A DNA stretch of 38,450 nucleotides from contig CAJYRQ010000096.1 of the NCBI GenBank assembly GCA_913777465.1, positions 1 through 38,450 on the forward strand. The letters are read 5' to 3'. Below, piece by piece: positions 4,310-38,450 of the stretch. Position numbers and translations under genes: made by a program. Below the pieces are notes generated by a model. The model searched no databases. It was not told where the DNA came from and worked only from the letters and a program-made list of their open reading frames with translations. Origin of the DNA: an uncultured Chryseobacterium sp. Lineage in GTDB: Bacteria; Bacteroidota; Bacteroidia; Flavobacteriales; Weeksellaceae. How positions within the stretch are numbered: position 1 is the stretch's first letter; every line of letters begins with the position of its first letter.

Positions 4310-6284
4310 ATACGACAACAAGCGTAAGAAAACATTACGTTGGGGCTACCTCTTTGCAGTGGTGGCTTTGTGCGTATTTACCCTTTTCCTTGCCAGGATC
4401 GTCATCCTTCAGAATACCAACGTCCAGGAAATCAAAGACGATTACATCAACAAAAACTACCGCGAAGCCACTTTAAAGGCTGCCAGAGGAAACCTGTTTG
4501 CCTCCGACGGATCCATCCTGGCCACCACCGTAATGCGTTATGACATTTACCTGGATTTCAAAACCATGAAAGACACGGTGTACACCAACAACATCGGTGC
4601 TTTGAGTGACTCTCTAAGTAAAATGTTCGGGAAGCCGAGGGGTGAGTTCAGAAAGAAATTCGACGAGCAGCGAAGAAAGAAAAACCAGTATTACACCCTG
4701 GTAAAAGGCCTGGATTTCGACCAGTACGACCGGATCCGGAAGTTCCCGATATTTAAGAAAGGGAAAAACAAAGGGGGATTCATTGTAGACAGAAACTACA
4801 AACGGGAACTCGCTACTACCGAAATCGGGGCAGGAACCATCGGGATGGATGACGGGGTACATACCGCCGGACTGGAAGGTGCCTTTTCAAAATACCTGAG
4901 GGGAACCGACGGAAAAAGACTGGAACAGAGGATCAACTCTTCCCAATGGAAACCGATTGACTTCTGGAAAGTTCAGGAACCGATTGACGGTGAAGATGTT
5001 TATACTACTTTAGACCTTAGGATTCAGGATATTGCCCATTCCGCCTTACAGAAACAGCTGATTAATTTCGAGGCCAAACACGGAACCGTGATTGTCATGG
5101 AAGTGGCTACCGGGAAAGTCCGCGCCATGGTCAACTTAAGAAGAACCGATGACGGCGATTACGTAGATTCTTACAACTACGCCCTGAAAGACAATATTGA
5201 GCCGGGCTCCACCTTCAAAACCATTTCGCTTCTGGCCGCCATGGATGACGGCTTTATCGACGAAAACACAACGGTAGATGTAGGTAACGGGGTCTGGGTA
5301 TATGCCAAGCAGAGAATTTCCGACGGCCATGGCCACGGAATCTATGACATCAGTGATGTTTTGGCCAAATCCAGCAACGTAGGTTCAGCCAAATTAATTA
5401 CGAAATATTACGCCGAAAAACCGCAGATTTTTCTGGATCATTTAAGACGCTGGAAACTCTTCGACAAAATGGATATCGAGCTTCCGGGGATTACCAAACC
5501 AAGGTTTGTAACACCGGAAAGCAAAAGATGGAACCCTGCCGCGCTGGCATCGCTGGCTTACGGATACGCTTCCAACATCAATTTATTGCAGCTGGCGACC
5601 TTCTACAACGGGGTTGCCAACAACGGTAAAATGCTGAAGCCTTTATTCATCGATAAGATCATGAAAGACGGCAAAGTATCCTATACGGCCAAACCGGAAG
5701 TAATGGTGAGCAAGATGGCTTCCGAGAAAGCCATCAGAATGATGACCCACGCGCTCACCAAAGCCGTGGAAAAAGGTACCGGGAAAAGTATTTTCACCCC
5801 GAACCTGAAAATGGCCGGAAAAACGGGAACCGCAAGATTTGAATACTGGCTGCCCGGTCCGATGAAATACCGCGCGTCATTCGCCGGCTTCTACCCTGCT
5901 GATAATCCGAAGTATACCTGTTATGTGATGATCAGCGAACCGAACACGGCAAAAGGCTTCTACGGAGCGACTGTTGCAGCTCCGGTATTTAAGGAAATTG
6001 CAGGAAAGACCTTCCTGAAGACCCCGCAGAATGTTGAAAAAGAAATGCTGGTCGACAAAAAAGTAAACCTCAATAAAATGGTTGAACCGAATGTAAAAGT
6101 CGCCGTGAACCATAAACAGATGCCTAATGTTGTCGGATTAATCGGTAAAAACGTGATCCCGCAGCTGGAAAACCTCGGGTATCGGGTGGATTACAAAGGC
6201 GTCGGAAGAATTACGGAGCAGTTTCCCACCGAAGGAACGACCATCAGTAAAAACCAAAGGATTTACTTATCCCTGCAAAACTAA
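4293..6284 (+). CDS. ftsI: Septal peptidoglycan transpeptidase FtsI (PBP3) with PASTA domain
   Basis: Class B penicillin-binding protein that cross-links septal peptidoglycan in partnership with FtsW. The 663-aa product has a cytoplasmic N-terminus, one membrane segment at about 18-37, a periplasmic dimerisation domain, and a transpeptidase domain carrying the SxxK nucleophile motif STFK (306-309, Ser306), SSN at 360-362 and KTGT at 510-513. A single PASTA domain follows at about 608-662 (QMPNVVGLIGKNVIPQLENL). A C-terminal PASTA is common in Bacteroidota and Gram-positive FtsI but absent from the E. coli protein. Starts inside ftsL. Confidence 0.95.
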   Translation: MQKQNEYDNKRKKTLRWGYLFAVVALCVFTLFLARIVILQNTNVQEIKDDYINKNYREATLKAARGNLFASDGSILATTVMRYDIYLDFKTMKDTVYTNNIGALSDSLSKMFGKPRGEFRKKFDEQRRKKNQYYTLVKGLDFDQYDRIRKFPIFKKGKNKGGFIVDRNYKRELATTEIGAGTIGMDDGVHTAGLEGAFSKYLRGTDGKRLEQRINSSQWKPIDFWKVQEPIDGEDVYTTLDLRIQDIAHSALQKQLINFEAKHGTVIVMEVATGKVRAMVNLRRTDDGDYVDSYNYALKDNIEPGSTFKTISLLAAMDDGFIDENTTVDVGNGVWVYAKQRISDGHGHGIYDISDVLAKSSNVGSAKLITKYYAEKPQIFLDHLRRWKLFDKMDIELPGITKPRFVTPESKRWNPAALASLAYGYASNINLLQLATFYNGVANNGKMLKPLFIDKIMKDGKVSYTAKPEVMVSKMASEKAIRMMTHALTKAVEKGTGKSIFTPNLKMAGKTGTARFEYWLPGPMKYRASFAGFYPADNPKYTCYVMISEPNTAKGFYGATVAAPVFKEIAGKTFLKTPQNVEKEMLVDKKVNLNKMVEPNVKVAVNHKQMPNVVGLIGKNVIPQLENLGYRVDYKGVGRITEQFPTEGTTISKNQRIYLSLQN

Positions 6285-6356
6285 ATTGAGTCCCGGAAGA
6301 ACAACCGGAAACAGAATAGGATAAAGAAAGAATATTAAAAGATAAAGCATAGATAC

Positions 6357-7817
6357 ATGCAGCTAAATGAATTATTAAAAAGAATTCCGGTACTGGAAAT
6401 CCTTGGCACTGACACCACAGAAGTTTCCGCACTGGTTTTCGACAGCAGAAAGGTAACGGAAAACTCTGTGTATATCGCCATGAGAGGAACCGTTGTGGAC
6501 GGACATTCATTTATTGCCGCATCAGTGGAAAAAGGGGCAAAAGCCATTGTCTGTGAAGAATTCCCGGAGCATACGGATGAAAGCATAACGTATGTGAAAG
6601 TAAAGGATTCTTCCAAAGCTTTAGGACAGCTGGCTTCCAATTTTTACGGCAACCCTTCCGAAAAACTAAAACTGATCGGAGTAACGGGAACCAACGGAAA
6701 AACTTCCGTTTCCACTTTGCTATTCGACGTTTTCAAGAATTTAGGATACGATTCCGCTTTATTGTCTACGGTTGAAATCAGAATTGCTGATCAGGTGATT
6801 CCTGCAACCCATACGACTCCGGATGTCATTACCATCAATAAGATCCTTGCCGAAGCTGTGGAAGAAGGCTGCGAATTTGCCTTCATGGAAGTAAGTTCCC
6901 ACGGGATTGCCCAAAACAGAATCGAAGGGCTTCATTTTTCAATAGCCGGTTTCACAAATCTTACCCACGATCATCTGGATTACCATAAAACATTCGACGA
7001 ATATTTAAAGACGAAGAAAAGATTTTTTGATGAACTGAACAGCACGGCGGTGGCCATTACCAACGTTGATGATAAGAACGGGAACGTGATGCTTCAGAAC
7101 ACGAAGGCTTCAAAAAAATCTTACGCCATGAAGACCATGGCCGATTATCACGGAAGACTCCTGGAAGTGGATTTCAACGGGATGCTGCTGAACTTCAACG
7201 GAAAAGAATTCTGGACAACCCTGACCGGAAAATTCAATGTCTATAATCTGTTACTGGTATTCGGGATTGCCTCGGAACTTGGCTTTGAGCAGGAAGAAAT
7301 CCTTCAGGCGATCAGCCAGCTGAAAAGGGTTGCCGGAAGATTCGAAACCTTTAAATCGGATGGCGGCATATTTTTCATCGTCGATTATGCCCACACTCCG
7401 GATGCCCTGGAAAATATCCTGGACAGCATCAACGATATCCGGACTAAAAATGAAAGGTTAATTACCGTATTCGGTTGCGGCGGCGACAGGGATCATGCAA
7501 AACGACCTGAAATGGGAAATATTGCCACGAAAAAATCCACGTTGGCAATTATCACATCAGACAACCCGAGAACGGAAGATCCGGCAGCGATTATTAAAGA
7601 AATTGAAGCAGGCGTGGAACCTCAGCACTTCAGCAAATACACTTCTATTCCCGACAGGAAAGAAGCCATTAAAATGGCCATCAAATTTGCGGAACCGAAA
7701 GACATCGTTCTCGTAGCCGGTAAAGGACATGAAGATTATCAGGAAATCAATGGCATAAAGCACCATTTTGATGATAAGGAGACAATTAAGAAATTATCAC
7801 AATTAATGGGAAAATAA
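6357..7817 (+). CDS. murE: UDP-MurNAc-tripeptide ligase MurE (meso-DAP type)
   Basis: ATP-dependent ligase adding the third residue of the peptidoglycan stem peptide in the cytoplasm. The ATP-binding motif GTNGKT is at 111-116, the FTNLTHDHLDYH segment at 199-210, the DYAHTPDAL motif at about 343-351 and AGKGHEDYQ near 453-461. DNPR at 402-405 is the motif associated with meso-diaminopimelate-adding enzymes, as opposed to L-lysine enzymes, so the organism probably makes DAP-type peptidoglycan as expected for Bacteroidota. 486 aa, normal length. Its stop codon directly abuts the next start codon. Confidence 0.96.
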   Translation: MQLNELLKRIPVLEILGTDTTEVSALVFDSRKVTENSVYIAMRGTVVDGHSFIAASVEKGAKAIVCEEFPEHTDESITYVKVKDSSKALGQLASNFYGNPSEKLKLIGVTGTNGKTSVSTLLFDVFKNLGYDSALLSTVEIRIADQVIPATHTTPDVITINKILAEAVEEGCEFAFMEVSSHGIAQNRIEGLHFSIAGFTNLTHDHLDYHKTFDEYLKTKKRFFDELNSTAVAITNVDDKNGNVMLQNTKASKKSYAMKTMADYHGRLLEVDFNGMLLNFNGKEFWTTLTGKFNVYNLLLVFGIASELGFEQEEILQAISQLKRVAGRFETFKSDGGIFFIVDYAHTPDALENILDSINDIRTKNERLITVFGCGGDRDHAKRPEMGNIATKKSTLAIITSDNPRTEDPAAIIKEIEAGVEPQHFSKYTSIPDRKEAIKMAIKFAEPKDIVLVAGKGHEDYQEINGIKHHFDDKETIKKLSQLMGK

Positions 7818-31290: not shown

Positions 31291-32709
31291 TTAAATATTT
31301 TCCTTTTCATCTGCATGGGTATGATAAAAATTCGGGAACCGGAGCTGGACGGTAGTCCCCTGGTTTTCATGCGAACTCACAATAAGCTCGCCCTGATGCA
31401 TCCTTACGATATTCCTGGCCAGCGGAAGGCCAATGCCGTAGCCTTCATAATTTTTGGTATTGGAAGCCCGGAAAAAGGGATCGTAAATTTTATTCATTTC
31501 TTCCCCGGGAATTCCGATCCCGTTGTCTTTCACAATAAGGTAAACATCCGTATCCGTTGCCCCCAACGATACCTTTACCTGCTCGAAGTCGGAATATTTA
31601 CAGCCGTTCTGGATAATATTGGTGACCGCAAGATGGAGCAGCTGTTCGTTGCCCTGTACCTTCAGTTTTTTAGGATTATCCGGCAGCATACTGATATCCA
31701 GGTAAATATTATTTCTTAAATCGATTTTCCGAAGGGTTTCAATGACATCCCAAAGCAGCTGGTCGATCCGTATTTTATCCACTTTCTGGATTTTCCCGTC
31801 AAACCCGGTCTGGGCAATCATCAGCAGCGCTTTGATTTTTTTATCTAACTTTTCCGCTTCATCCAGGATAATGCCCAGTGTTTCTTTGTATTCTTCGTTG
31901 GTCCTTGAAATGGAAAGTGCAACGTCCGCTTCTCCCATAATCGAGGTTAAGGGAGTCCGCAATTCGTGCGATACATTTCCGATCAGGTGGTTCTGGGTTT
32001 CGAAGGATGTTTCAATACGGTTCAGCATTCCATTAAAGGTATCCACAAGCTCATTCAGCTCTTTGTTGTCCGGCTGGGGCTCAAGCCGCAAATGGAGGTT
32101 TTCGGAACTGATTTCCTTTACTTTATCCGTAATTTTCAAAATCGGCTTAAACAAGGTTTTGGACAGGTAAAAAGAGAAGATCATGCTGAAAAACAGCGAG
32201 AGAACGATACAGGTAATGAGCGTCCTCTTTAGAAATCCCAGATAATAAACTACATAATGGTTTTTGGCCGAGGCAATGGCAATATAGTCTTTATCGTCAT
32301 GCCTGAAAGTCTGCCCGATATAGTAAAACTCCTTGTCGTTATAATTGGATTCTCCTTTCTTAACAATACTTTTAAAAAAATAAGCCGGAATATGGATTTC
32401 ACTGGAAATTTTCTGAAAGTTGGAATCCGTTGGAATGGCAAAAACATAATCCCTCTCCATCGGAAGTTCTTCATCATTCAGCCCGTTCAGGATATAGTTT
32501 TCCGGAAGATCCAGGTCGTCTTTCCCTTTTTCAATCTGGATAATGGTCGTGGTACGGATTTTCAGCAGCTCGTAAAACCTCTGATGGGAAAAATTGACAA
32601 TGGAAAAATACACCAACCCACTAAACAGCAATATGATGGCGGTAAACACCAGCATCAGGAGCACCATCGTTTTGGTTTGATTCGTTATTACCCGGTTAAA
32701 CATCATCAA
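31291..32709 (-). CDS. Sensor histidine kinase
   Basis: 472-aa inner-membrane kinase of the OmpR-partner type. Two membrane segments (about 14-38 and 160-183) bracket a periplasmic sensor of about 120 residues without recognised domain. A HAMP linker follows (about 184-236), then the HisKA helix with GNVSHELRTPLTSIMGE, phosphoacceptor His248. The ATPase domain has the N box (VTNIIQNGCKYS), VKDNGIGIPG and GYGIGLPLARNIV. It overlaps the response regulator gene by 4 nt (ATGA type), so the pair is translationally coupled. The inducing signal is unknown. Confidence 0.94.
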   Translation of the reverse strand: MMMFNRVITNQTKTMVLLMLVFTAIILLFSGLVYFSIVNFSHQRFYELLKIRTTTIIQIEKGKDDLDLPENYILNGLNDEELPMERDYVFAIPTDSNFQKISSEIHIPAYFFKSIVKKGESNYNDKEFYYIGQTFRHDDKDYIAIASAKNHYVVYYLGFLKRTLITCIVLSLFFSMIFSFYLSKTLFKPILKITDKVKEISSENLHLRLEPQPDNKELNELVDTFNGMLNRIETSFETQNHLIGNVSHELRTPLTSIMGEADVALSISRTNEEYKETLGIILDEAEKLDKKIKALLMIAQTGFDGKIQKVDKIRIDQLLWDVIETLRKIDLRNNIYLDISMLPDNPKKLKVQGNEQLLHLAVTNIIQNGCKYSDFEQVKVSLGATDTDVYLIVKDNGIGIPGEEMNKIYDPFFRASNTKNYEGYGIGLPLARNIVRMHQGELIVSSHENQGTTVQLRFPNFYHTHADEKENI

Positions 32710-33413
32710 GGTTTTTTCAGGACATATCCCATCCCTATTACGGTATGGATCAACTTATGATCTTCCTGGTGATCCAGCTTCTTCCTCAGGTAATTCACAT
32801 AAACATCCACGACATTGGTTCCCAGCTCGTAATTCACGCCCCAAACCGAATCTAAAATTTCGGCCCGGGAAATAACTTTCTCAGGATTGTTCAAAAAATA
32901 GAGCAGCAGTTTATATTCAGTTGAAGTCAGTGAAATCTCCTCTCCTCCCCGCGTTACTTTTTTGGTATAATCGTTGAGCACAAGATCCGAAAACTGGAAT
33001 ACGTGCTCCTGATCAACTTCGGGCTCGGCAGCTTCAGCGGAACTTCCGTTACCGCTCCTTCTCAAAAGGGATTTTATTCTTGCCACCAGCTCGATAAACT
33101 TGAACGGTTTCACCAGATAATCATCCCCTCCGCTTTCGAGACCGAGAACGATATTTTCCGAAGTCCCCAAAGCCGTCAGAAACAGAATCGGAACATGCGG
33201 GTTGGTTTTCCGGATCTCCTTGCAGACATCCAGGCCGTTCATTTCCGGCAGCATGATATCCAGAATCACAAGATCGAAATCATTCGACTGCACCAGCTGC
33301 ACGCCGGTCCTGCCGTCAAAAGCTACGGAAACTTCATAGCCGTTCTCCTGCAACCCTTTTTTAATAAAAGATACCACACTGGTTTCGTCTTCGATGAGGA
33401 TAATTTTTTTCAT
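32706..33413 (-). CDS. OmpR-family response regulator
   Basis: 235-aa DNA-binding response regulator, partner of the adjacent kinase. Receiver domain: acidic pair near residues 8-9 (IEDE), phosphoacceptor Asp52 (VILDIMLPEMNG), Thr79 and Lys101 (VKPFKF). The winged-helix output domain (about 135-233) has the family signature SLTSTEYKLLLYFLNNP, then VWGVNYELGTNVVDVYVNYLRKKL. The exact TAnnTTTG element at 33431-33438 provides a promoter. A plausible target is the repeat array at 31139-31173; this is inference. Confidence 0.95.
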   Translation of the reverse strand: MKKIILIEDETSVVSFIKKGLQENGYEVSVAFDGRTGVQLVQSNDFDLVILDIMLPEMNGLDVCKEIRKTNPHVPILFLTALGTSENIVLGLESGGDDYLVKPFKFIELVARIKSLLRRSGNGSSAEAAEPEVDQEHVFQFSDLVLNDYTKKVTRGGEEISLTSTEYKLLLYFLNNPEKVISRAEILDSVWGVNYELGTNVVDVYVNYLRKKLDHQEDHKLIHTVIGMGYVLKKP

Positions 33414-33430
33414 GAAAATGAATAATGATA

Positions 33431-33438
33431 CAAAAATA
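33431..33438 (-). promoter_or_regulatory. Candidate -7 element of the response regulator gene (TATTTTTG)
   Basis: The minus strand reads TATTTTTG, an exact TAnnTTTG match, 17 nt before the response regulator start codon. The hairpin at 33442-33468 lies immediately upstream, over the expected -33 position. Confidence 0.5.
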
Positions 33439-33441
33439 AAG

Positions 33442-33468
33442 AAAGGATTAGAAATATTCTAACCCTTT
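33442..33468 (-). terminator. 12-bp hairpin after the accessory operon
   Basis: AAAGGATTAGAA (33442-33453) pairs with 33457-33468 around a 3-nt loop, with one G-T wobble. Read on the minus strand it is followed by CTTTATTTTTG, so it can end the ABC operon. It also overlaps the -33 region of the response regulator promoter and could instead be a dyad operator. Confidence 0.55.
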
Positions 33469-33489
33469 GTTGCATCATCTAATTAATAA

Positions 33490-34863
33490 TTAAAAAATTT
33501 GGTATACAGGAACTCCTGAAAAATAGCTTGAAAAAATAATAATCATAATAATTTCCACCATAAGATAATCTTTTACAAAGGCAGTATAAGCCAGCTGAAA
33601 TATAAATAATAACAAAAGCCTGGTTATTATCAATACACTGACTTCAATGGAAGAATAATCGAGCACAGGAATAACGATAATTATGTACACAAAAAATAAT
33701 AAAAATTTAGAGAATCCAAAAAGTATAGGAGGATAGCCTGAAATTTTTTCAGCGTACAATGTATTGTTGGTATATTTCCCTGCAAGATAATTCTGGTTAA
33801 GAGGAAGAATTATAATAAATATTGCCGCCACGAGTAGAATTTTTATATTTCCCTGAGCAACAAATGCCAGTATCCACAGAACAAAAGCTGTTAATCTCAG
33901 ATTTCTGCTTAAGGAATGGCTTAGCAGAAAATATTCTGCTTTCAATAAAGAAATAAGGTCGAAAGAATAAACAGACTGCCTTGGAAGATAAACAGCTTGC
34001 TGTACAGAAGACGGCCTTACTTCATTTTTTGCAGGGGTCGGGCTCTGCTCCTTATTTTTTACTCTTGCATATCTTTTAAACAGAAAAGAAGCAGCCAGCA
34101 CAATTATGAATGCGACAGGAAAAAGATACAATTTGTCCACCCATTTTTTAGGGGTAATAAAGTTCTGAAAATTTATATATTGTACGTCTTTATTTTTTAT
34201 TTTTCCTAAAATAAATGAATTGTTATTTTTGGTATTGACGTGCGAAAAATTATCCATCAGCTCCTGGATACCGGTTACATCCAGCAAATGTCTGATCTCT
34301 GTATTATAAACAAAAATGATAAATCCGAAATACAATACATATTTTAAAAATTTCAAGTCTACTAAATAATCGATAACTGTACATATAGTTGACAGAAAAA
34401 ATAAATACGGAACAGTGAAATATAGAAAAGGAATGAGATACAATACGAAATTATAGCTCTGATAATTAATAAACAGAATGATAATTTCCAGAATAAATGC
34501 CAGTATGGTAAGATATAAAAAAAGAGAAATTACCCTGTACATCAACAACTGAAAATTCGATTTCACAGATAAACGAAAATTGACATAGGTATTATCTGCC
34601 ATTTCCCTGTTTTTAAGGTTCTGACTGATGAAAAGAGATAATAAAGCAAATATTGCATTAATATAAACAGGGGTCAAATTACTGATCCAGATTAAATTTG
34701 ATCCTCCGGTGTAATTTCCGACTGTGAATGTTACATAGTCTGATTTAGGATTCGGGATCATAAAAAATCCCAGGATCATAATAACAGCCAGTATATATTT
34801 AAAATAAGTATGCTTAAAAAATAATCTCAGGTTATAGAGAGATATTAAAGGTAATGCTTTCAT
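33490..34863 (-). CDS. Polytopic ABC transporter partner (permease-like)
   Basis: 457-aa membrane protein with roughly eleven or twelve hydrophobic segments in two groups: about 20-215, then a soluble extracytoplasmic or cytosolic stretch with MDNFSHVNTKNNN, and a second group at about 260-457 that contains a polar loop (EQSPTPAKNEVRPSS). No family could be named from sequence alone. The immediately preceding gene is an ABC ATPase (5-nt gap), so this is almost certainly its membrane partner, either exporter or self-protection pump. Rich in Ile, Phe, Tyr, Leu and Asn and markedly AT-rich, unlike the dcw genes. Confidence 0.75.
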   Translation of the reverse strand: MKALPLISLYNLRLFFKHTYFKYILAVIMILGFFMIPNPKSDYVTFTVGNYTGGSNLIWISNLTPVYINAIFALLSLFISQNLKNREMADNTYVNFRLSVKSNFQLLMYRVISLFLYLTILAFILEIIILFINYQSYNFVLYLIPFLYFTVPYLFFLSTICTVIDYLVDLKFLKYVLYFGFIIFVYNTEIRHLLDVTGIQELMDNFSHVNTKNNNSFILGKIKNKDVQYINFQNFITPKKWVDKLYLFPVAFIIVLAASFLFKRYARVKNKEQSPTPAKNEVRPSSVQQAVYLPRQSVYSFDLISLLKAEYFLLSHSLSRNLRLTAFVLWILAFVAQGNIKILLVAAIFIIILPLNQNYLAGKYTNNTLYAEKISGYPPILFGFSKFLLFFVYIIIVIPVLDYSSIEVSVLIITRLLLLFIFQLAYTAFVKDYLMVEIIMIIIFSSYFSGVPVYQIF

Positions 34864-34868
34864 AAAAT

Positions 34869-35609
34869 CTATTTTGCAAAATATTCAAATGCTTTTTCCA
34901 GATTCAGAATATTTTCCTGCTCAGGATCCCCAGAGTCTGCAACCGCTCCCGGAACCAGCCGGTCTACAGTATCTGAAAAACTAATCTGCCCGCTTCGCAG
35001 AATGATAATATGATCCACAAACTTTTCAATCTCATAAATATTATGTGATGAAACAAGTACGATTGCATGTTTCGACATTTTTTTGATGAGTTCATAAAAA
35101 TTGATTCTCTCGATGGGATCCAATGCGCTTGTCGGTTCATCGAGGATTAAAACCTTCGGATCATTTACTAATGCAAGCGACAGGGCAACCCTTTGCTGGG
35201 TTCCGCCGGAAAGATTTTTTACATGGGTATTTTTAGTATGAAAAATATTAAAAAACTCAAGCACATTCGGAATAGTTTCCTTCAGCGTTTTTGAGGATAA
35301 TCCTTTCAGCATTCCGAAATACATCAGGTTTTGAGTCACGGTCAATTCAGGAATCAACCCGAAATTCTGTGGCATATAGCTTAGATCCTTCCTTAATATA
35401 AGAGGATTTTTTACAATATCGGCATCATTGTAATGCAGGCCGCCTTTTTCAGGTTTTGTCAGTGTAGATATTATATTCATTAATGTAGTTTTCCCTGCCC
35501 CATTAAGTCCTAGGATACCATATATTCCTTTGTTCAGGGATAAGCTGATGTTTTGCAATATCGTTTTGTTATTGATTTTGTAACTAATATTATTCAGTGA
35601 TAGGCTCAT
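34869..35609 (-). CDS. ABC transporter ATP-binding protein
   Basis: 246-aa single-domain ABC ATPase. Walker A is GLNGAGKTT at 34-42, the Q-loop lies at Gln81 (YMPQNFG), the signature LSGGTQQR is at 133-140, Walker B VLILDEPTSALDP at 153-165, and the H-loop VLVSSHNI near 187. The helix pattern is that of antibiotic or peptide resistance and export ATPases (CcmA/NatA-like) rather than nutrient importers. The start lies inside the 3' end of the HTTM gene (20-nt overlap), so the two products are translationally linked. Confidence 0.94.
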   Translation of the reverse strand: MSLSLNNISYKINNKTILQNISLSLNKGIYGILGLNGAGKTTLMNIISTLTKPEKGGLHYNDADIVKNPLILRKDLSYMPQNFGLIPELTVTQNLMYFGMLKGLSSKTLKETIPNVLEFFNIFHTKNTHVKNLSGGTQQRVALSLALVNDPKVLILDEPTSALDPIERINFYELIKKMSKHAIVLVSSHNIYEIEKFVDHIIILRSGQISFSDTVDRLVPGAVADSGDPEQENILNLEKAFEYFAK

Positions 35610-36477
35610 GTTTTTTAAAATATTTTGATTCTAGTATTATTTTGGGCTGGAAAGCAATTATATTAAGTATAATCATCACAATTCCGAATGTATAAAGGTT
35701 AATAAGAAGGACGATAATGATATGTGTAACGATAATATAAAGCAAAGTAGCTTTTTTTGTTACTTTATTATAGATAAGAAAAGGATAGAATAATTCTGCA
35801 ATGACGACGCTTAGGGAAATAATCTGAAAAACTACCGGAATTGTGGTGGCTACAAAAGCTGTTAACACATTTACTTCGGTATAAGTACATATCAGATACC
35901 AGATTGCGTCCCCTGTGTACCAATTGTTCCCCATTGCCTTCCCGACTCCTGAGAAAAAGTAGATAACACACAACTGCAATTGTATAAGCCTGATCGCAAA
36001 AGAATACAGTACACGGTTGTATTTTGAATCAATACATAATATAACATTTACAAAAAGGGAAAAGCTTATCATGTAATCGGCTCCATAGGAGAAAGAATAG
36101 CTGCCGGCCACCAGGGCATTATGAATAACAAGGACCAGTATGGCAAAAAACAGCCTGTAGTAATTCATAAGAACAAATATAAAAGAACAGATGTAGATGG
36201 CTACAACCATTGCCAGCGCATATTCATATCTAATCCCGATCCGTTCGATTGTATCCGTAATAAATGTTAGGCGGAATTGATCCTTTCGTATTAAGAAATC
36301 ATTAATCTCCGCATTTATAATTCCGCTTTTGCTGTATATATTGTAAAGATCCGGTAAAATAAGAAGTATATTTAATAAACCAAATGAACAAATAGCAATA
36401 ATAAACAGGTTTTTCTTTTCTATGTTTTTATGATACCCGAAAAAAAAGGCATTGAATTTATTTACAGCAGTATTCAT
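35590..36477 (-). CDS. HTTM-domain (SdpB-like) membrane protein
   Basis: 295-aa membrane protein with about seven segments. The sequence YFFSGVGKAMGNNWYTGDA near 173-191, followed by AIWYL, matches the diagnostic loop of the HTTM domain, the membrane fold of vitamin-K-dependent carboxylases. A later histidine (THIIIVLLINLYTF, His252) is also typical. Bacillus subtilis SdpB, needed to make the SDP peptide toxin, has the same fold. With a secreted peptide and an anchored partner just upstream, an SdpB-like maturation role is the best guess. Family identity is fairly firm, function inferred. It starts 1 nt after the previous gene. Confidence 0.8.
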   Translation of the reverse strand: MNTAVNKFNAFFFGYHKNIEKKNLFIIAICSFGLLNILLILPDLYNIYSKSGIINAEINDFLIRKDQFRLTFITDTIERIGIRYEYALAMVVAIYICSFIFVLMNYYRLFFAILVLVIHNALVAGSYSFSYGADYMISFSLFVNVILCIDSKYNRVLYSFAIRLIQLQLCVIYFFSGVGKAMGNNWYTGDAIWYLICTYTEVNVLTAFVATTIPVVFQIISLSVVIAELFYPFLIYNKVTKKATLLYIIVTHIIIVLLINLYTFGIVMIILNIIAFQPKIILESKYFKKHEPITE

Positions 36478-36478
36478 A

Positions 36479-37030
36479 TTAATTTTTTTTAATATTATAT
36501 ACTGTAGTTTCCTCTACTCTGATCGGTTTATTCCGTTTTATTTCTGCCAGAGAAGGAAATTGCTTTTTTACAATCAGAACGTTCATATCATTGATCTGCG
36601 GATGAAGGGTAAATAATCTTACTGCCATAGATTGGATAACCCGGTTTCGGAAACCTTCATTTTTCAACTGACCTCCTAATATTGTAAAAATACTTTTTAT
36701 TTTAAATGATGATTCAAATGTTTTGCCCGGCAGCATGACGGGTGTATCATTATTTTTAAAGATAATTTCTGTTTTTTTATTGGCTGCATTGGGAGAATAA
36801 TATTCATATCCTCTTTCTATACCGGTATAATAAGAATAATTTCTCATTCCGGTCTGCACTCCATAAGGAAGGTTAAAATATTCAAGGTAATCTATTATTT
36901 TTTTTCCATGGGCATTTAAAGATGAATAGGTAGAATTTTTCCATGTTTTGATAATCTGAATATTGATAAAAAAAGAAGAGCCGATATGGAAAAGCAACAA
37001 TGCTAATAATACTATTTTTAGTGTTTTCAT
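36479..37030 (-). CDS. Membrane-anchored partner of the HTTM protein (SdpA-like)
   Basis: 183-aa protein with one N-terminal membrane anchor (about 4-24) and an extracytoplasmic remainder. GYEYYSPNAANK at 74-85 resembles the aromatic-FxP motif found in partners of HTTM proteins. A C-terminal stretch (MAVRLFTLHPQINDMNVLIVKKQFPS) has the look of the soluble domain that accompanies such membrane domains. Position and size match SdpA, the second maturation factor for the SDP toxin in Bacillus, but I cannot show homology by eye. The gene lies directly downstream of the attenuator hairpin. Confidence 0.65.
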   Translation of the reverse strand: MKTLKIVLLALLLFHIGSSFFINIQIIKTWKNSTYSSLNAHGKKIIDYLEYFNLPYGVQTGMRNYSYYTGIERGYEYYSPNAANKKTEIIFKNNDTPVMLPGKTFESSFKIKSIFTILGGQLKNEGFRNRVIQSMAVRLFTLHPQINDMNVLIVKKQFPSLAEIKRNKPIRVEETTVYNIKKN

Positions 37031-37044
37031 GGGATTATAAAAAA

Positions 37045-37067
37045 GAGGCTAATGTAATATTAGCCTC
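37045..37067 (-). terminator. Attenuator-like terminator after the peptide gene
   Basis: Perfect 9-bp stem GAGGCTAAT (37045-37053) with ATTAGCCTC (37059-37067), 5-nt loop. Read on the minus strand it is followed by TTTTTTATAA. It lies between the peptide stop codon (37092) and the SdpA-like start (37030), so transcription may partly stop after the peptide and partly continue into the maturation genes. Confidence 0.8.
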
Positions 37068-37091
37068 ATAGATTGAATAATTATGAGATAA

Positions 37092-37304
37092 TTACTTTGT
37101 AGCCTCTTCTGAAGATCCGGTATATACATATTCCGAAGAAATAAATGTCCACTCTTTTTTTGCAAGAGCATTTTCTTTTGCTGTTGAAACCGCCTGTACC
37201 GAAACTTTTTCAGTAGAGATGTTTTTTGGATTAGCACTGGCTAGAGTAAATGTACCTGCTGAAAATGCAACGATAAGTGCTGCTGCTACTAAATGTTTTT
37301 TCAT
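37092..37304 (-). CDS. Secreted 70-aa peptide (candidate precursor peptide)
   Basis: 70-aa product with a clear Sec signal peptide: MKKHLVAAALIVAFSAGTF at the start and an AxA cleavage site (LASA before Asn25). The predicted mature part of 46 residues begins NPKNISTEKVSV and is hydrophilic, cysteine-free and ends with EWTFISSEYVYTGSSEEATK. No similarity was recognised. Because the next genes are an SdpA-like protein, an HTTM/SdpB-like protein and an ABC transporter, it may be the precursor of a processed signalling or antimicrobial peptide. It is far shorter than SdpC (about 200 aa). A plain secreted protein of unknown role is the alternative. Confidence 0.75.
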   Translation of the reverse strand: MKKHLVAAALIVAFSAGTFTLASANPKNISTEKVSVQAVSTAKENALAKKEWTFISSEYVYTGSSEEATK

Positions 37305-37398
37305 TTTAATAATTTTTAATGGTTATTTTCCTAATTTGTTCTTTCGGGTTAGATCCCTTATGTTTTGTTTTTAGAGCTACAAAATATCAAAATCTCTC

Positions 37399-37414
37399 AT
37401 AAAAGCGCTTTTAT
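37399..37414. promoter_or_regulatory. Perfect 16-bp palindrome upstream of the peptide gene
   Basis: ATAAAAGCGCTTTTAT is a perfect palindrome located between the GLPGLI stop codon and the peptide gene, about 95 bp upstream of the peptide start. It lies roughly 13 bp upstream of a TATTTTG element (minus strand, 37380-37386), that is, over the -33 position, consistent with an operator. It could also act as a weak terminator of the GLPGLI gene. Confidence 0.5.
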
Positions 37415-37419
37415 ATCTT

Positions 37420-38268
37420 TTATTGGACCAATTCTATAGCTTGATTATTTGCTCCAATCATCTTTTTTATAGTTTCTTCCTGATCTTTTAGTTTTTGTCC
37501 CAGCGTTTTACCGCCCTCTCCTGCTTCGCTTAATTGTTCTGCAGAATACTTGTTTCTGACTTGGGCCAGCGGACTGGTTTTAAATTCGGCAAACATTTGG
37601 GTAAACTTGTTTTTATCTACTGCCAAAGGCTTTTTATTCTTTAATCTTTCATTGAGGCTCAGTTCATTATATTTTTCCAGATTTTTAATTCCTGCAAGCT
37701 GCCAAGAGAAATTTTTGTTTTCATCTTCCACTTTTACAATAAGCCCCGGCAAACCGTAAAATTTATAAGGACCATCCTGGATAGGAATATCCGTAGTAAA
37801 CCAGGCAGTCCAGGTTCTTCCCCACATTTTAGCAGTCGCTTTTTGGATTTTATATTTTTCAAATGAGCTGATTCCTTTTTCATTCGTAATTTCCCATTTG
37901 ATCTTTTGCGGCTCCGGATAAGTAATGAAATCGCTTAAAATCAGATCTGTAAAACTGGTATCATAAGCAGGATAATTTTTCTCCACTTTATACATAAACT
38001 TAGGGTTCTTGATCAGTTTAGCCAGATCAATCTTCACTCCGCTTGCCTTCATTTTCTCAATATTGCTTTCAATGATCGAGTCCTGGGATACTGAAAGGTA
38101 ATCTCTGTAAATTGATTTCTGTTTTGTGACATCCAGAATAGTAAGTTCTTTTTCAACTTTTGAAGAATCCTTATACGGTTTATAAGAAAACTCATAAAAG
38201 AATCTTTTGGCCTGCCCGTTAGTAAATATGTAAAGAATAATTAAAATTATTGATAAGTTCTTCTTCAT
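37420..38268 (-). CDS. GLPGLI family protein
   Basis: 282-aa exported protein of the GLPGLI family, restricted largely to Bacteroidota and of unknown function. The signal peptide (MKKNLSIILIILYIFTNGQA) ends near residue 20. The name-giving GLPGLI motif is at 172-177, preceded by the usual MWGRTWTAWFTTDIPIQDGP (149-168) with its tryptophans. The length is typical and the frame is complete. Its start codon and leader are inside the left arm of the terminal inverted repeat, so its transcription may depend on the spacer orientation. It precedes the peptide operon on the same strand, 115 nt away. Confidence 0.9.
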   Translation of the reverse strand: MKKNLSIILIILYIFTNGQAKRFFYEFSYKPYKDSSKVEKELTILDVTKQKSIYRDYLSVSQDSIIESNIEKMKASGVKIDLAKLIKNPKFMYKVEKNYPAYDTSFTDLILSDFITYPEPQKIKWEITNEKGISSFEKYKIQKATAKMWGRTWTAWFTTDIPIQDGPYKFYGLPGLIVKVEDENKNFSWQLAGIKNLEKYNELSLNERLKNKKPLAVDKNKFTQMFAEFKTSPLAQVRNKYSAEQLSEAGEGGKTLGQKLKDQEETIKKMIGANNQAIELVQ

Positions 38269-38313
38269 TTTCTTTGATTATTAATTTTATCTTATTCAGC
38301 TAAACTATGTGAT
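38263..38313. repeat. Left arm of a 51-bp perfect inverted repeat
   Basis: These 51 bases are perfectly inverted at 38400-38450. The arm covers the leader and first two codons (ATG AAG) of the GLPGLI gene, including TAGTTTAG (minus strand, 38300-38307), a near match to the -7 consensus. Confidence 0.9.
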
Positions 38314-38330
38314 AATATTCACATATGCAA
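38300..38330 (-). promoter_or_regulatory. Candidate split promoter of the GLPGLI gene
   Basis: On the minus strand TTG (38328-38330) is followed after 20 nt by TAGTTTAG (38300-38307), one base away from TAnnTTTG. The -33 part lies in the spacer and the -7 part in the repeat arm. Confidence 0.45.
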
Positions 38331-38399
38331 GAAATAATATTGTTTTTTTTAATCTTTTTTTATAAAATCCCATTATTTATTTCTCTATATAATGATATA

Positions 38400-38450
38400 A
38401 TCACATAGTTTAGCTGAATAAGATAAAATTAATAATCAAAGAAAATGAAG
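38400..38450. repeat. Right arm of the 51-bp perfect inverted repeat (to window end)
   Basis: Perfect inverse complement of 38263-38313, ending with ATGAAG at 38445-38450 on the plus strand, which would be the start of a divergent gene with the same N-terminus. The repeat may extend beyond the window. The 86-bp AT-rich spacer (38314-38399) is not symmetrical. Confidence 0.9.

Follow-up and report, generated by a model that had tools for sequence, protein, structure and literature searches.

What do a few closely packed minus-strand genes near the end of a Chryseobacterium contig make, and what is their product for? The genes lie in a 38,450-nucleotide (nt) stretch from an uncultured Chryseobacterium sp. 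(contig CAJYRQ010000096.1, hereafter the window), and an earlier sequence-only reading had proposed that five of them form a short-peptide relative of the Bacillus subtilis SDP toxin system with its own ABC transporter. All on the minus strand, they encode a precursor peptide of 70 amino acids (aa) with a Sec-type signal peptide and a conserved C-terminal core (37092..37304); protein A, of 183 aa, with an N-terminal membrane anchor and the motif GIERGYEYYSPN (36479..37030); protein B, a 295-aa SdpB/HTTM-like membrane protein of which A is presumed to be the maturation partner (35590..36477); an ABC ATPase of 246 aa, whose gene shares its first 20 nt with the B gene (34869..35609); and a polytopic ABC permease of 457 aa with no Pfam family (33490..34863), the last two being presumed immunity proteins. 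The coordinates agree with the sizes and the gaps of 61, 1, −20, and 5 nt that had been given, and the region is AT-rich as claimed (GC 32.8% over 33490–38268 versus 42.7% over 1–33000). Five genes are not the whole unit, however, as the GLPGLI family gene upstream of the peptide (37420..38268, minus strand; TIGR01200, PF09697) is part of it; neither this gene nor a terminator-like hairpin described below had figured in the earlier reading. The explanation we favor, at slightly better than even, is that the cassette makes a Sec-exported, bacteriocin-like candidate peptide that is finished by A and B, with the ABC pair providing self-immunity.

The 70-aa frame is a genuine gene, and one under strong purifying selection. 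Nonsynonymous-to-synonymous ratios (pN/pS) in seven sequences (the window and loci L086–L090 and L034, among them the environmental species C. limigenitum, L087, and C. polytrichastri, L088) are 0.028 for codons 1–25, 0.18 for the 12 codons that follow, and 0.060 for the 13 codons of the core. The small frame on which the sequence-only reading was built is thus conserved. Its signal peptide would span residues 1–24 (37233..37304, minus strand), with the cleavage site judged by eye to fall between ASA and N, and the core EWTFISSEYVYTG occupies residues 51–63 (37116..37154, minus strand) and is presumably part of the mature peptide. The core pattern WTF(I/V)S..(F/Y)VY is found again in Chryseobacterium, Kordia, and Tenacibaculum, and all 11 aligned peptides from the three genera, a set picked for the WTF core and excluding cassettes with other cores, share W52, T53, F54, V60, and Y61 without exception. 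Among 197 relatives searched, the peptide occurs in six, each time beside A and B, whereas B relatives occur in 44; most A/B pairs are therefore without this peptide, and one outcome that the sequence-only reading had named as refuting, these genes occurring without the peptide, has in part come about. In most of the peptide-free A/B loci that were read, the slot is occupied by another small secreted frame.

Tandem copies of the peptide are present in L036, L097, and L099. The L036 array (5337–6590) has at least five copies, two of them with a cysteine pair replacing the WTF core, and the B gene of that cassette carries an internal stop. The peptide frames of L035 and L037 are covered by longer antisense frames and become visible in a three-frame reading. 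Plasmid carriage was considered and rejected: the peptide was absent from the 72,556 plasmid records searched at E ≤ 0.01, and B has one match there, in Hymenobacter, at 24% identity (E 6e-10). Searches of PHROGs and PADLOC gave no match at E ≤ 0.01 for the peptide, A, B, or the permease, and we found no paper on the cassette among the matches listed from the openly licensed PubMed Central literature.

Protein B is a remote but clear homolog of SdpB and, by way of SdpB, of the vitamin K gamma-carboxylase GGCX. Against the NCBIfam SdpB model TIGR04033, window B reaches E 1.1e-6 and 28.5 bits, far below the membership cut-off of 178.4 bits, and the homologs in L094 and L096 reach 8.7e-9 and 8.4e-14. 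A B profile compared with seven Bacteroidota SdpB sequences gives a probability of 98.3 and E 2.3e-14 over 175 columns, which upholds the homology that had been suspected for the 295-aa protein. The HTTM label needs more qualification: Pfam HTTM (PF05090) is matched by 7 of 15 aligned B proteins (best 2.2e-9), but window B itself has no Pfam match at E ≤ 1, and its membership of the HTTM superfamily (PF05090, with GGCX) is assigned by sequence. The nearest named B among the 15 loci is that of Chryseobacterium sp. SN22, at 93%, in line with a Chryseobacterium-like source. In a quick tree of 72 B rows, in which the program flagged long branches, nine SdpB sequences fall to one side (support 100) with window B outside their branch, and 17 ABC-type B proteins cluster together (97). 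The remaining short-peptide B proteins are not grouped together in the best tree, although their monophyly is not rejected by the approximately unbiased test (p-AU 0.287).

When the B profile was compared with the PDB, GGCX chains were the sole finds at E ≤ 10 (8 of 8), the best at 0.36, which is not significant alone; the SdpB profile finds the same chains at 8e-5. The residue pairs counted in these alignments are K180–K218, W186–W223, F264–F299, and H252–H287 (B and GGCX, respectively). The catalytic lysine K218 of GGCX is retained in B as K180, a correspondence read from alignments at E 0.36 (B) and 8e-5 (SdpB). K180 is invariant in 15 of 15 B proteins, and the corresponding K185 in seven of seven SdpB. 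Flavobacteria use menaquinone-6, and we infer that B uses a quinol. For GGCX, K218 is described as the catalytic base and W223 and F299 as part of the lining of the quinone pocket (PMC12589487).

Protein A is harder to place. The fetched loci hold 61 homologs ahead of B, a count that includes genomes fetched twice (L032/L086, L033/L090, L037/L091, and L038/L095) and near-copies. Window A has no match in Pfam or NCBIfam, and 15 of 15 family members have chance-level NCBIfam matches only; the SdpA family (TIGR04034, PF17418) is matched neither by window A nor, in NCBIfam, by any of the 15. The sequence-only reading of the 183-aa protein as an SdpA is to that extent not borne out, and we rejected A as a plain SdpA, as the profile match spans only 20–31 columns. 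That match, at its longest 31 columns with a probability of 11.3% and E 0.0027, is short and weak, yet none of 150 column shuffles does as well (best shuffle 0.007), and the likeness is hence suggestive of a relationship between A and SdpA. The two also have a motif in common, in comparable positions beyond the anchor (RGY.(F/Y)(F/Y)SPN in A, QGW.FFT in SdpA). A occupies the SdpA slot without a family match in Pfam or NCBIfam. In L076 and L077 the slot ahead of the B homolog is filled by DUF5819-like proteins (1.5e-8 and, under the cut-off, 4.4e-5) with the motif NW(G/S)(M/F)FAP, and the profile match between these and window A covers 16 columns (E 0.0038). The cassette in this respect resembles the DUF5819 + HTTM pairs (PF19136), from which window A differs in its lack of a Pfam match.

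The ABC pair can be judged by what survives its loss of neighbors. Of the 395 genomes searched in the order, eight have the permease family at E ≤ 1e-10, six of them with B in the same cassette; this permease/B survey scored only the best four to five candidates per genome from a first look. The two without B, G036 (locus L108) and G033 (L109), have intact ATPase and permease frames, and the peptide and A are gone as well. Relative to L112, L108 lacks ~2.3 kb in the interval from the GLPGLI gene to the 3' end of B, with ~20 B bases left; relative to L035, L109 lacks ~2.5 kb over the corresponding interval, with ~120 B bases left. Both deletions also take the 3' part of the GLPGLI gene, and we take them to be separate events, since their break points are not the same and the ABC genes of the two loci find their matches in different subgroups. 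Branch pN/pS is 0.20 for the L108 permease, 0.06 for its ATPase, and 0.14 for the L109 permease. Across 23 ABC-type cassettes, tallied by hand with the B of L100 left undecided, A/B is broken or lost in five (L036, L070, L093, L108, and L109) and the ABC pair in none. This pattern is what immunity would be expected to leave, rather than what a dedicated exporter would. The proposal that the ABC pair is a protection module therefore gains support from the two deletions that spare it.

The wider unit is kept together across families: the peptide, A, B, GLPGLI, ATPase, and permease genes are found jointly in Weeksellaceae, Flavobacteriaceae, and a Saprospiraceae metagenome-assembled genome (MAG). 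In the Chryseobacterium cassettes the GLPGLI gene precedes the peptide, and in the Cruoricaptor locus (L100) the contig starts just before the peptide. The order in Kordia and Tenacibaculum is peptide, A, B, PadR, HAAS, a large secreted protein (863–872 aa, with a weak carboxypeptidase-regulatory match), GLPGLI, ATPase, permease, and a DCC1-like protein, and the Saprospiraceae MAG cassette (L096) is without PadR and HAAS; family scans of these layouts were run on L094 and L096, the remaining loci being assigned by resemblance. Some cassettes end in a gene for a DCC1-like thiol oxidoreductase (PF04134; L035:10961–11323, L094:15785–16210), and the peptides of both these loci are cysteine-free all the same. 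The hairpin lies between the peptide and A (37045–37067; 37039..37067 with its T run, minus strand). It is present in all 14 cassettes folded, and when compared with 200 dinucleotide shuffles, none was as stable in 12 cassettes and 3 of 200 were in the other two. No RNA family was found in 33000–38450 at gathering scores. The two-component genes at 31291–33413 were considered as members of the unit and rejected: they adjoin the cassette in L086, L087, L089, L090, and L034, but not in L088. A perfect 51-bp inverted repeat (38263–38313/38400–38450) reaches the contig end. Its 41-base centre has no second mismatch-free copy elsewhere in the genome, and the relative L086 has a single arm in the stretch read; the repeat is therefore probably a fold-back artefact.

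How close does this bring the cassette to described systems? The SdpABC/SdpRI cannibalism toxin of B. subtilis, with its paralog YitPOM/YitQ, is likewise built on a secreted precursor, a small and a membrane protein needed for active peptide, and dedicated self-protection (PMC6818787). The differences are considerable: the precursor has 70 aa here versus 203, an ABC pair and GLPGLI are present, and B sits on a separate tree branch. The peptide does not match the SdpC family TIGR04032 (~200 aa, with a hydrophobic C-terminal toxin), and no SdpI-type immunity protein is found among the cassette genes scanned (ATPase, permease, GLPGLI, and the two-component pair), the rest of the genome not having been searched. 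Because it falls outside SDP at the family cut-offs and in the B tree, we do not file it there; the cassette works in outline like SDP and is not an SdpABC member. The likeness to GGCX lies in the alignment of B and its catalytic lysine, and the difference in B being without the large C-terminal substrate-binding part. Linaridin clusters offer a third parallel, as a short ribosomal precursor is accompanied there by an HTTM membrane protein and one further protein; corynaridin has a 69-aa precursor and an HTTM protein (PMC9927463), and grmL is described as a possible epimerase gene (PMC10373908). No linaridin-type modification enzymes were found among the neighbor proteins scanned in NCBIfam and Pfam.

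Under the bacteriocin-like explanation, the 70-aa precursor would be exported by Sec and its signal peptide removed, after which the envelope pair A and B would modify it, help to cut it, or both, yielding a short peptide around the WTFISSEYVYTG core; the mature product is expected around WTFVSSEYVYTG. Such a maturation step is suggested by the fact that B is homologous to SdpB and GGCX. The producer would be protected by the ABC pair, as the ABC-sparing deletions suggest, whether by expulsion or by sensing. The GLPGLI protein would aid production and not immunity, because the L108 and L109 deletions remove the 3' part of its gene, and the hairpin 3' of the peptide gene may hold the precursor in excess over A and B. 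The patchy distribution, the low GC, the tandem peptide copies, and the SdpC-SdpA-SdpB operons close to related cassettes in two genomes also favor a bacteriocin-like product.

The main rival is signaling, in which A and B make a peptide pheromone and the ABC pair is its sensing or uptake path. The conservation of the core across three genera fits this, and so does the presence upstream of the peptide of LuxR-HTH genes in L095 (4636–6990; Tenacibaculum, with a ThiF gene) and L116 (4420–5922; genome G734, with a weak match to FeeM, an N-acyl amino acid synthase, at 7e-4 and under the cut-off), neighbors that may point to signal-controlled expression. In the Kordia locus L094 the gene after B encodes PadR, and look-alikes stand there in other Kordia and Tenacibaculum loci. 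However, ABC pairs are retained without the peptide, no regulator is common to all layouts seen, and the two-component genes are not beside the cassette in L088, and we consider a pheromone unlikely. We give still less weight to the ABC pair being the exporter of the finished peptide, with separate immunity absent: bacteriocin ABC systems often export, and the gene order and the 20-nt B/ATPase overlap would suit this role, but the precursor comes with a Sec-type signal peptide of its own and two genomes retain an intact pair without peptide, A, or B. Least probable, by a little, is a small envelope or surface protein with modification enzymes, unrelated to competition. GLPGLI proteins do recur next to A/B pairs (L059, L065, L073, and L096) and one outer-membrane barrel gene (PF14905) lies beside L060, whereas the patchy presence of the peptide (6 of 197), the tandem precursor arrays, the SdpCAB operons nearby in two genomes, and the ABC-sparing deletions all speak against it.

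Several points weigh against the bacteriocin-like explanation itself. A signal would equally explain how well the core is preserved from one genus to another, and the peptide is without the hydrophobic toxin segment of the SDP type. Five ABC-type cassettes (L035, L037, L070, L096, and L112) have quite different peptide cores. The count of five to none is a small one, and breaks seen in draft genomes could reflect sequencing errors; the branch pN/pS of the orphan ABC genes mixes the time before and after the deletion; and weaker permease relatives exist in G097 and G067, outside the cassettes examined.

The A/B pairs without this ABC pair adjoin other small secreted precursors, among them 95–98 aa forms with a cysteine pair, GWT(F/Y)CD...C, 97-aa tandem arrays, tandem copies of 97–108 aa, and forms of 196–197 aa. 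By a crude signal-peptide rule, a signal-peptide-like small frame lies within 1 kb upstream on the same strand for 55 of the 61 A homologs, doubtful ones included (the 50-aa frame of L093 and the 127-aa frame of L060), and on the opposite strand for 14 of 61. Of the six without a frame by this rule, three (L039, L075, and L100) have a candidate that can be picked out by eye, which leaves L040, L054, and the second L089 cassette. Two Chryseobacterium genomes (G802 and G756; L114:721–7241 and L115:4389–10922) have an SdpC-SdpA-SdpB operon ~2 kb (two genes between) from a related short-peptide-A-B cassette with tandem precursors of 97–108 aa; SdpA and SdpB are over the cut-off, and SdpC is under it at 1.3e-15 and 1.1e-16. 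Locus L102 (6284–10021) has five tandem SdpC-like frames (by eye) ahead of a single SdpA-SdpB pair.

A broader proposal is put forward as speculation, with the balance leaning against it: A and B may be a peptide-modifying enzyme of the gamma-carboxylase superfamily, in which menaquinol and oxygen yield a strong base, serving a whole, as yet undescribed class of short secreted Bacteroidota peptides of various cores (WTFxSxxYVYTG, GWTxCD..C, GWYVAFGQDWVLVV, and others) that have their own protection modules. If this is true, the A/B base chemistry would account for SdpA and SdpB in Bacillus as well as for the HTTM proteins of linaridin clusters. To our knowledge, the chemical role of SdpA and SdpB is open, and a 13-residue core beside an SdpB-like protein with the gamma-carboxylase lysine makes that chemistry testable on a short peptide. 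The cassette also provides a context for the GLPGLI family, itself so far unexplained, and a putative protection gene pair that occurs with and without its peptide. More generally, these findings point to a large set of flavobacterial secreted peptides.

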